A stretch of DNA of 64,000 bases from Gammaproteobacteria bacterium (GTDB lineage: Bacteria; Pseudomonadota; Gammaproteobacteria; Chromatiales; Chromatiaceae). This document shows, piece by piece, positions 5,354 through 54,412 of the stretch (position 1 is its first letter; the number at the start of each line of letters is the position of its first letter). The notes under the pieces were generated by a model. That model was not told where the DNA came from and searched no databases. It was given only the letters and a program-made list of their open reading frames with translations. Made by a program: the position numbers and the translations under genes. The DNA is taken from the NCBI GenBank assembly GCA_011390365.1, contig JAABSM010000001.1, positions 62,001-126,000 on the forward strand, read 5' to 3'.

Positions 5354-6181
5354 TTGAGCGATGTCCAGTGTGATCTCGGTGCGATGGATGGGGGGAGCTT
5401 GATGTTGGCGTATCGGTGGCTGAACGAAGGCAAGGGGGGCGGTATCCCCTTGATCGCGCTGCATGGAATGTTCGGGCGCGGGGAGCATTTGCGCGGCCTG
5501 GTGAGACGCATGGATCTCGCTCGACCGGTATTGTTGCCCGATTTGCGTAACCATGGCGCATCCTTTTGGCGAAGGGAGATGGATATCCCGCTCATGGCTG
5601 GGGACCTGGCGGCGTTGCTGGATGAGCTGGCGATTTCACGTTGCATGGTGCTGGGACACAGCATGGGCGGAAAGGTAGCCCTCCATTTCTCCCTTGTACA
5701 CCCACGCAAGGTGGATCGAATCGCCTCCCTGGATATGGCCCCGGTTACCTATCCACCACGCTTCGCCCATCTCTTTGAGGTACTGGGAACGCTGGAGCTG
5801 GAGAAGTTTCAGGCACGGGGGGAGGTGCGGCGTGAGCTCGCTTCAAGGCTGGGAGATGAGCGCCTTGCCGGTTTTCTGGCTCAGGCGCTGGTTCGGGACG
5901 GGCGGAGCTGGAACTGGCGTTTCAACCTTTCTTCTATACGAGAAAATGGCGATCGATTACGCCGCTTTCCGCCATCGCCTTTGCATCGCCAGTTTCGCGG
6001 GCCCGCCCTGTTCGTCCATGGTGATCGCTCCGACTACATGCGGGAGGATTACTGGCCCGAGATCATTCGTCTCTTCCCCGCCGCCAAGAGCCGCGCGATA
6101 GCCGGCGCGGGACACTGGTTGCACGTGGATCAGCCGGAGGAGACCAGCCTTGCCCTGAGGGGGTTTTTCATCAGCGGCTAG
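5354..6181 (+). CDS. Alpha/beta hydrolase, YbfF-like
   Basis: 275-aa alpha/beta-hydrolase-fold esterase-like protein. It has an oxyanion-region LHGMFGRGEH, the nucleophile elbow GHSMGGK (Ser), the acid Asp probably in VHGDRSDY, and the catalytic His in GAGHWLHVDQPEE near the C-terminus. The family includes thioesterases and carboxylesterases such as E. coli YbfF; the substrate is not predictable. The longest start is TTG at 5354; the ATG at 5384 is the alternative. The gene diverges from the transporter-like gene on the other strand. Its TAG stop lies inside a 15-bp palindrome (6178-6192) that matches the tips of a repeat element elsewhere in the window. Confidence 0.88.
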   Translation: MSDVQCDLGAMDGGSLMLAYRWLNEGKGGGIPLIALHGMFGRGEHLRGLVRRMDLARPVLLPDLRNHGASFWRREMDIPLMAGDLAALLDELAISRCMVLGHSMGGKVALHFSLVHPRKVDRIASLDMAPVTYPPRFAHLFEVLGTLELEKFQARGEVRRELASRLGDERLAGFLAQALVRDGRSWNWRFNLSSIRENGDRLRRFPPSPLHRQFRGPALFVHGDRSDYMREDYWPEIIRLFPAAKSRAIAGAGHWLHVDQPEETSLALRGFFISG

Positions 6182-6192
6182 TGCGGCACTAG
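6178..6192. repeat. 15-bp perfect palindrome matching the joined tips of the 100-bp element
   Basis: CTAGTGCGGCACTAG is a perfect 7-1-7 palindrome. Its halves equal the outermost 7 bp of the two ends of the 100-bp element at 8262-8361. It sits between two convergent genes and contains the stop codon of the alpha/beta hydrolase. It could be an excision remnant, a target site or chance. Confidence 0.55.
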
Positions 6193-8261: not shown

Positions 8262-8361
8262 CTAGTGCGGCACCCGCTAAATAAGCCATAACGCTATTGA
8301 TATAAAAATCAATACCCTATGCCCCGCATTATTCATGGTCACTTGGCGGGTGCTGCACTAG
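8262..8361. mobile_element. 100-bp MITE-like element, copy 1
   Basis: Terminal inverted repeats CTAGTGCGGCACCCGC (8262-8277) and GCGGGTGCTGCACTAG (8346-8361) match at 15 of 16 positions. The AT-rich core holds an inner inverted repeat ATTGAT/ATCAAT. It encodes nothing. A second copy about 88% identical lies at 53081-53180. The element covers the last 33 bp of mazG, including its stop codon. Confidence 0.75.
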
Positions 8362-9174
8362 CCCCCTCTCGGCCGTTTCCCAGAGCCGAGCAAGGGCCTC
8401 GGGGTCCGACGCCAATGCGTCGATCCTTTCATCTCTTTCCCTCAGGATTTGCTCCATGCGCTGGAATCGTCGGGTAAAGTTGCGATTGCACTTGCGCAAG
8501 GCGCCCTCGGGATCGACCTTCAGGTGACGGGCAAGATTGACGCAGGTAAAGAGCAGATCCCCCATCTCCTGCTCCAGGCGCGCCTGTCGGCGTTGTGGAT
8601 CCCCCTCCGCCATCGCCTCGACCAGCGCCGTCCGCTCCTCGTCAAGCTGCTTCAGCACCCCCGCGGGGCCGGGCCAGTCGAAACCGACATGGGCGGCCTT
8701 GCGCTGGAGCTTGTGGGCGCGGGTCAGGGCCGGGAGCGCTTCGGGAATCGAGGCCAAAAGTCCTCCCTGGTCCTGGGTTTCCTTCTTGTCCGCCCGCTCG
8801 GTCGCCTTGATCGCCTCCCAGGCGCGGCGCTGCTCCTCTTCGCTGGCGTAGTCTTCATCGCCGAAGACGTGGGGGTGGCGGCGAACCATCTTGTCGCAGA
8901 TGCCGGCGACGACATCGTTGAAGTCGAAGCGGCCCTCCTCGTGGGCGATCTGGGCGTAGAAGACCACCTGAAACAGCAGATCCCCCAGTTCGTCCCGCAG
9001 GTCATCGAAGTCGCCGTTCTCGATCGCCTCGGCCACTTCATAGGCCTCTTCGATGGTGTGGCGCACGATGCTGGCGTAACTCTGTTGCAAATCCCAGGGA
9101 CAGCCATCTTGCGGATCCCGCAGGCGGGCCATGATCTCCAGCAGGCGTTGCATCGGCTCCGGGTGTTCGCTCAT
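8329..9174 (-). CDS. mazG: Nucleoside triphosphate pyrophosphohydrolase MazG
   Basis: 281-aa two-domain all-alpha NTP pyrophosphatase that hydrolyses (d)NTPs to NMPs plus PPi. The N-terminal half carries GCPWDLQQSYASI, EEAYEVAEAI and ELGDLLFQVVFYAQ, and the duplicated C-terminal half has EQEMGDLLFTCVNLARH; length fits the family. The ATG shares four bases with the ribE stop (ATGA), giving translational coupling. The C-terminus is odd: the final residues and the TAA stop lie inside the 100-bp element at 8262-8361, so the native tail (about LVQHPPSDHE) was replaced or extended by element sequence. Confidence 0.95.
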   Translation of the reverse strand: MSEHPEPMQRLLEIMARLRDPQDGCPWDLQQSYASIVRHTIEEAYEVAEAIENGDFDDLRDELGDLLFQVVFYAQIAHEEGRFDFNDVVAGICDKMVRRHPHVFGDEDYASEEEQRRAWEAIKATERADKKETQDQGGLLASIPEALPALTRAHKLQRKAAHVGFDWPGPAGVLKQLDEERTALVEAMAEGDPQRRQARLEQEMGDLLFTCVNLARHLKVDPEGALRKCNRNFTRRFQRMEQILRERDERIDALASDPEALARLWETAERGLVQHPPSDHE

Positions 9175-53080: not shown

Positions 53081-53180
53081 CTAGTGCGCCAGCCGCTAAA
53101 TAAGAAATAACACTATTTATATAAAAATCAATACCCTGCGATTCGCATTATTCATGGTCACTTGGCGGGTGCTGCACGAG
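53081..53180. mobile_element. 100-bp MITE-like element, copy 2
   Basis: Same length and organisation as copy 1 (8262-8361) with about 12 differences. The left end, CTAGTGCGCCAGCCGC, has diverged; the right end GCGGGTGCTGCACGAG matches copy 1 except for one base. It ends 17 bp beyond the argJ stop codon, in the same orientation to argJ as copy 1 has to mazG. Confidence 0.75.
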
Positions 53181-53197: not shown

Positions 53198-54412
53198 TCA
53201 GGTCCGATACTCGGCGTTGATCTTGACATAGTCGTAGGAGAAGTCGCAGGTGAGGATGGTGGCGGAGGCGTCGCCGCGACCGAGTTCGATGATGATGGGG
53301 ATCTCGCTTTGGTCCATCACCCGCTGGCCGTCCTCTTCGGTGTAGCGGGCGGAGAGGCCGCCCTGGTCGACGATCTCGACGTTATCGAGGCAGATGCGTA
53401 CCTTGCGGATCTCCAGGTTCTGGATGCCGGCGCGGCCGACTGCCGCGAGGATGCGGCCCCAGTTGGGATCGGAGGCGAAGAGGGCGGTCTTGACCAGCGG
53501 CGAGTGGGCGATGGCGAAACCCACCTGCTTGGCTTCCTGGCGGCTGGCGGCGCCTGAGACCCGTACCTCGACCAGCTTGGTGGCGCCTTCGCCGTCACGC
53601 GCGATATCGCGGGCCAGTTCCATGCAGAGCAGGGTCAAGGCCCGCTGGAATGCCTGGCCGGATTCGCTTTCGGCGTCGGTAATGGCCGAATTACCGGCCT
53701 TGCCGGTGGCTAGCAGGACGCAGGCATCGTTGGTGGAGGTGTCGCCGTCGATGGTGACCGAGTTGAAGGAGGGCTCCACCGCAGTGGCGAGACAGCGCTG
53801 CAATAGCTGGCGCTCGATGGCGACGTCGCTGGCCAGATAGGCGAGCATGGTGGCCATGTCGGGGTGAATCATGCCCGAGCCCTTGGCCATACCGGTGAGG
53901 GTGACCGGCGTTCCGTCCAGTTCAATACGCACCGAGTGGAGCTTGGGGACCGTGTCGGTGGTCATGATCGCCTGCGCGGCGGCTTGCCAACCCGCGGGGC
54001 TGAGGTTGTTCAGCGCCTGGGGCAGGGCGGCGGCGATGCGCGATGTGGGCAGGGGCTGGCCGATGACGCCGGTGGAGAAGGGGAGTACCTGGGTGATCGC
54101 GCATTCGCGCAGGGCGGCGAGTGCCTTGCAGGTCTCCAGGGCGTCACGATAGCCCTGTTCGCCGGTGCCGGCGTTGGCATTGCCGGAGTTGATCATCAGG
54201 TATCGCGGAGCGGCGATCGCGCCATGCTCCCTGGCTACCGTGACCGGGGCGGCGCAGAAGGCGTTGCGGGTGTAGACCGCGGCGCAGCGGGTTCCCTCCT
54301 CGCATTCGATGATCACCAGGTCGTGGCGGTCGGCATACTTGATGCCAGCGGCGGCGACGCCGAGGCGGATGCCGTCGATGGGGCTGGGTTGGGGTAGAAA
54401 TTCGGCCTTCAT
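53198..54412 (-). CDS. argJ: Glutamate N-acetyltransferase/amino-acid acetyltransferase ArgJ
   Basis: 404 aa. It transfers the acetyl group from N-acetylornithine to glutamate in arginine synthesis. The Thr-based autocleavage site is in GMIHPDMATMLAY, where cleavage before the Thr gives two chains. Other marks: NSGNANAGTGEQGYRDA, PFSTGVIGQPLP, DTSTNDACVL and NWGRILAAVG. It lies 16 bp after the secA stop on the same strand, and the second 100-bp element follows it at once. Confidence 0.96.
   Translation of the reverse strand: MKAEFLPQPSPIDGIRLGVAAAGIKYADRHDLVIIECEEGTRCAAVYTRNAFCAAPVTVAREHGAIAAPRYLMINSGNANAGTGEQGYRDALETCKALAALRECAITQVLPFSTGVIGQPLPTSRIAAALPQALNNLSPAGWQAAAQAIMTTDTVPKLHSVRIELDGTPVTLTGMAKGSGMIHPDMATMLAYLASDVAIERQLLQRCLATAVEPSFNSVTIDGDTSTNDACVLLATGKAGNSAITDAESESGQAFQRALTLLCMELARDIARDGEGATKLVEVRVSGAASRQEAKQVGFAIAHSPLVKTALFASDPNWGRILAAVGRAGIQNLEIRKVRICLDNVEIVDQGGLSARYTEEDGQRVMDQSEIPIIIELGRGDASATILTCDFSYDYVKINAEYRT

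Follow-up and report, generated by a model that had tools for sequence, protein, structure and literature searches.

A 100-bp MITE with IS630-type ends often sits at TAG stop codons in a Chromatiaceae genome, probably as an effect of its CTAG target

Results

The window, a stretch of 64,000 nucleotides from a Chromatiaceae draft genome, carries two copies of a short repeat, here called family A. Family A is very probably an IS630-type (Tc1/mariner-like) MITE that moved into the TA of CTAG, and its landing in stop codons is then mainly an effect of this target. The evidence comes from the structure of the copies, their ends, their positions relative to neighbouring genes and the corresponding sites in related genomes.

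Copy 1 occupies positions 8262..8361 (+ strand, 100 bp) and has CTAG at both ends. Copy 2 occupies positions 53081..53180 (+ strand, 100 bp), with the right-end CTAG mutated to CGAG. The two copies are identical at 88/100 positions in a gap-free alignment, which agrees with the ~88% described in an earlier note on this sequence, and the similarity is far beyond chance because a genome-wide search gives 73 matches to the element. The note had also described 16-bp terminal inverted repeats. Inverted repeats are indeed present, but they measure 19 bp and are imperfect, with 17/19 matched positions in copy 1 and 14/19 in copy 2. The left repeat of copy 1 (CTAGTGCGGCACCCGCTAA) lies at 8262..8280 on the + strand, and the right repeat, CTAGTGCAGCACCCGCCAA when read on the minus strand, lies at 8343..8361. 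The core of each copy is AT-rich in GC-rich surroundings, as described, with a GC content of 0.37 in copy 1 and 0.29 in copy 2 compared to 0.63 for the whole window. The ATTGAT/ATCAAT motif attributed to both cores is confined to copy 1; copy 2 has ATTTAT/ATCAAT.

The two copies do lie at the 3' ends of the minus-strand genes mazG and argJ in equal orientation, and NCBIfam matches back both gene names. Copy 1 contributes the stop and the 10 codons before it to mazG (8329..9174, minus strand; tail LVQHPPSDHE, then stop), the frame-0 stop inside the copy being the end of the gene. MazG models cover residues 8-269 of 281, so the tail derived from copy 1 is outside the modelled domain. ArgJ models match argJ (53198..54412, minus strand) through its final residue, and its stop codon is 17 bp away from copy 2. 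The window also contains a solo 15-bp palindrome, CTAGTGCGGCACTAG, at 6178..6192, which corresponds to the two ends of the element with no core between them. A + strand open frame of 281 codons stops at the TAG of this palindrome and has esterase-like NCBIfam matches, all below the cut-offs. An Rfam search of the whole window gave no match.

To count copies genome-wide, as the earlier note had proposed, we used a profile model that was built from sequence alone of 32 copies and run over fetched regions. This gave 73 non-overlapping matches, two of which are halves of one copy, corresponding to ~72 elements with CTAG flanks in a 169-contig draft, a type of assembly in which repeats may be hidden. 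With copy 1 as the query, 40 of 72 candidates scored, with 88% identity in the weakest full-length match. In 61/73 matches, the alignment reached both ends of the model (positions 1-2 and 98-100). The 67 matches of at least 60 bits form the near-full set used for all context counts, and the 6/73 below 60 bits were excluded. The copy matched in two halves (C95:36989-37179) is interrupted by an insert of ~66 bp with a palindrome. The family is therefore short and dispersed with 19-bp inverted arms. It carries no transposase gene of its own: its length is 100 bp, and the frames read from either end soon run into stops. The outcome of only two copies, no flanking signature and no related IS, against which the note had set its proposal, fails on all three counts, since ~72 elements were counted, they are flanked by CTAG, and other genera hold a related IS630-family IS.

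Among 191 genomes (the source genome, its family and its class), positives were confined to the source genome, G003 with two copies, and G181 with a weak match. The insertion site of copy C57:1590 is common to one of the G003 copies. A 20-mer taken from the right end had one exact match in the GTDB contig collection, on a MAG contig (the source genome's own records may be absent from this collection), and was not found in viral contigs. A search for the element in plasmids and phages gave no match.

The outer 12 bp of family A, CTAGTGCAGCAC, recur in other genera at the borders of a 1.33-kb IS that encodes an IS630 transposase. In G039, two inverted copies of CTAGTGCAGCAC lying 1,329 bp apart enclose a transposase broken over two frames, the pieces of which match DDE_3 (7.6e-19) and the IS630 model NF033545. 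The outer 12 bp of the MITE are identical to those of this IS and the inner arm differs; through these 12 bp and the two protein models, family A has ends in common with an IS630-family IS. The search for an IS with matching ends that the note had called for thus led to other genera. In G259, a relative carries an open frame of 428 codons, and its ends, GTGCAGCACTG/GTGCTGCACTG, adjoin TA. The 12-bp end CTAGTGCNGCAC was counted 114 times in the source genome compared to 7 for the reversed control, 33 times in G019 and 16 times in G045. Thirteen IS copies with both ends were taken from 30 transposase loci; L221 was dropped as spurious-looking and L228 despite a weaker CTAG-bounded pair. CTAG was present at both ends in 13/13 copies, of which the TA is built in because the end search demanded it.

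At 1e-10, relatives of the C-terminal piece of the G039 transposase were detected in 46/211 family genomes; the source genome, G001 and G003 gave 0 matches. DDE_3 also had 0 matches in the source draft assembly. These searches found no autonomous partner in this draft, and the description of the element as non-autonomous with no transposase nearby holds across the assembly, in which nothing matched DDE_3 or the related IS630 transposase. The definition of a MITE requires no partner in the same genome, and a partner can be lost. No genome searched yielded an IS630 transposase flanked by CTAGTGCAGCACCCGC ends. Together, the ends suggest that family A was mobilised by an IS630 transposase.

Two other transposition systems could produce a repeat of this kind. 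MITEPsy1 of Pseudomonas syringae is also 100 nt long and inserts at CTAG or YTAA (PMC3189936), and an IS5-type MITE making a 4-bp CTAG (YTAR) duplication would leave flanks identical to those of a TA duplication in CTAG. However, the MITEPsy1 repeat printed in the part of that paper available, GGAAGGTCTGAAAAAGCC, is unrelated to the ends of family A (PMC3189936), which match ISs with an IS630-family DDE_3 transposase and not an IS5-family IS. The common IS630 ends already disfavour the IS5-type reading, and we regard it as very improbable. Movement by a RAYT (Y1) transposase would fit a REP/REPIN-like repeat that is short, palindromic, extragenic and present in many copies, but the ends in common with a DDE IS630 IS, and empty sites that are single CTAGs, leave this origin scarcely credible.

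The same outer CTAGTGCAGCAC is found on further MITEs. Family B of the source genome (111-112 bp; C9:10780-10890 (L105), C86:31789 (L107) and C128:19943-20054 (L110)) has the outer ends of family A and another core. MITEs with this outer sequence also occur in G019 (109 bp) and in G045, G034, G024, G102 and G072 (mostly ~110-130 bp). All of these, family B included, differ from family A in core sequence and copy number. The MITEs in G045, G034, G102, G072 and G024 (L165-L176) have the 12-bp end in common and carry inner repeats of the GTTGTCGTTGTC type. On C137 of the source genome, a family A copy lies directly against a family B copy that is missing its right end. Two other short repeats were also noted in the source genome: a ~31-bp palindrome, GGAGTGGCAGTCCTTGAAGGACTGCCACTCC, downstream of C17:10239, with dozens of matches in G003, and a second short repeat around CAGCCGCGCCAA, at times followed by CACGGAGATCACGG-like sequence, that often abuts family A ends (adjoining copies C2:12542, C79:31611 and C104:3601).

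In 33/67 near-full copies, the TAG stop of the neighbouring gene is the TAG of the terminal CTAG. Two copies supply the stop for the gene on either side: C81:38392, and C114:58034, which adjoins a protein presumably ending like GyrB. This gives 35 stop-sharing gene ends. A further 5/67 copies, including the one at mazG, hold a gene stop in another phase. The 34/67 copies that are not at a TAG stop comprise 10 between two gene ends, 19 between an end and a start, 3 between two starts and 2 at contig edges; most of these 34 adjoin at least one gene 3' end. The claim that the element is always at the 3' end of a gene is contradicted by the 3/67 copies between two gene starts, and the common orientation seen in the window is not a rule of the family, as the stop-sharing gene ends divide 18 vs 17.

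CTAG is rare, with 331 observed (elements included) compared to 2,210 expected from base composition. The 197 CTAGs outside elements comprise 88 in genes, 95 intergenic and 14 at stops. The background of non-genic CTAGs at stops is thus 14/109, compared to 33/67 for the copies (odds ratio 6.6, p=2e-7), which bears out the suggested preference for gene ends. Genes were called by a simple dicodon caller over ~646 kb around the copies; the background was drawn from these regions with the one caller for both sets, so the comparison is a controlled rather than a genome-wide one. Past CTAG, a search for an extended target consensus revealed only mild G/C differences from background. When the IS630 copies were considered, at least 80 open codons preceded the TAG at an end in 1/13 full-length copies in relatives, compared to 39/67 MITE copies of the source genome (p=0.0015), by a loose rule that 363/2,434 control TAGs passed and across differing genomes and flank lengths. 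This is only a hint that IS630 insertions do not all land at stops as a matter of course.

To determine where these genes end in relatives, all 35 gene ends were searched, 11 against five genomes and 24 against G001 and G003. Nineteen of the 35 were comparable; one C108 homologue and a second C66 homologue were left out because they had no locus. One of the 19 (C57) has its insertion in common with G003, and relatives are without the element at the other 18. At these 18 gene ends, 8 genes stop at the homologue's codon and 17 within 6 residues, the exception being the right gene at C81, which is 9-14 residues longer than its homologues. No protein of the source genome is more than 5 residues shorter than its homologues at these ends. 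Two stops are empty single CTAGs in a relative, in G001 for C147:65099 and in G003 for C104:10696. For C80 and C103, the G001 genes also stop with TAG at the equal codon, but this TAG is not part of a CTAG. The empty sites in G001 and G003, read with the one site common to G003, suggest that the element has been mobile.

These positions also bear on whether the element truncated the genes it entered, its terminal TAG only closing a broken frame. Any intragenic CTAG in a suitable phase would end at such a TAG, and the 5/67 copies with a stop in another phase, mazG among them, would fit truncation. Truncation, however, predicts that the three phases are used alike, and the observed ratio is 35 gene ends at the TAG to 5 in other phases; with proteins at most 5 residues shorter at the 18 comparable ends, we hold this account to be highly doubtful.

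Counting the solo palindrome of the window, CTAGTGCNGCACTAG stands by itself at 7 places in the source genome, 3/7 of which close open frames of 281-313 codons; single cases also occur in G019, G045 and G138. The terminal GTGCNGCAC of the element is its own reverse complement except for the middle base, so the two element ends are also direct repeats. Deletion between the two terminal GTGCNGCAC palindromes probably produced the solo CTAGTGCNGCACTAG sites.

We also considered that selection keeps the element as an mRNA 3' end, or as a bidirectional hairpin that protects or ends adjacent transcripts. Copy 1 folds as a long hairpin (-44.8 kcal/mol, z -7.6; other strand -46.8, z -6.5), and the arms of the family show weak covariation, with 6 doubly changed cells compared to 1.5 in shuffles (0/500). 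In contrast, copy 2 barely folds (z -0.75). Of the arm cells, 96.3% are paired and 3.7% unpaired, and RNAalifold found 3 pairs only on alignment A3, which took in 66/73 matches. The weak covariation could stem from a transposase's need for symmetric ends, and an RNA function by covariation was rejected as the main reading because the signal is weak. Copies at stops are no better conserved than those elsewhere (mean identity to the consensus 0.902 vs 0.917, p=0.10), and relatives do without the element at 18/19 compared genes. The even orientation (18 vs 17) argues against a one-way mRNA 3'-end role and, with the folding of copy 2 and the weak arm covariation, against the use in one orientation that the earlier note had suggested. 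Retention for an RNA role is therefore improbable, and insertion into CTAG stop codons accounts better for the preference for gene ends.

Discussion

The gene-end bias of family A follows mainly from its target. Elements of the IS630 group target TA and duplicate it on insertion, IS630 itself with a preference for the TA in CTAG, as described in the accessible part of the source (PMC2170065). By analogy, family A would have been inserted at the TA of CTAG, with duplication of TA, by an IS630-type transposase that recognised the common ends (GTGCAGCAC...). CTAG at both ends and the two empty sites with one CTAG fit this duplication, and a 4-bp CTAG duplication looks alike. CTAG is rare in the genome, and a gene ending xxC TAG has CTAG as its stop. 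After insertion at C-TA-G, the terminal G of the element would complete TAG, so that a gene running into the element from either side meets this stop. A gene would thus keep its length, and two convergent genes with one CTAG would both keep their stops, so that insertion is predicted to be silent even between convergent genes, the arrangement seen for two copies. Stop codons would be safe sites since TAG is left on both strands, and insertions within genes would mostly have been lost by selection.

Alternatively, the element or its transposase may actively favour stop-codon CTAGs, for example where DNA is more accessible at the ends of translation or transcription. We consider this unlikely. 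If true, the excess over other non-genic CTAGs would reflect targeting beyond the survival of harmless insertions, and family A would be a stop-codon-landing transposon that spreads without harm to either neighbour.

Insertion into CTAG followed by survival at stops would give a parasite a simple, testable route in a compact genome: a rare target, a large share of whose harmless occurrences are stops. Element ends able to restore the stop codon on either strand would be the second part of this compact-genome strategy. The case also separates target choice from function in gene-end repeats, a pattern often taken as regulation. A literature search of open-licence papers found no description of a MITE landing in host stop codons.

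Known systems share parts of this behaviour. IS870 uses CTAG to make the stop codon of its own transposase. IS630 of Shigella and ISY100 insert into TA with TA duplication, IS630 with a CTAG preference, as proposed here (PMC2170065). These three are autonomous ISs, whereas family A is transposase-less and rebuilds the stop codons of its host. MITEPsy1 resembles family A in its 100 nt and CTAG target, but its authors, in the text available, link it to an IS5-type IS, and its repeat is unrelated (PMC3189936). The RUP element of Streptococcus pneumoniae (107 bp, IS630-Spn1-related) is similar in size and has six-frame stop codons, terminal TA, IS630-family-like repeats and ~110 copies (PMC2229807, PMC3049150). 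According to the same sources, in the parts available, RUP has an IS630 in the same species and is proposed to insert within IS elements or close to them (PMC2229807, PMC3049150). In contrast, no IS630 was found in the assembly that holds family A, and half of the near-full copies lie in TAG stops.
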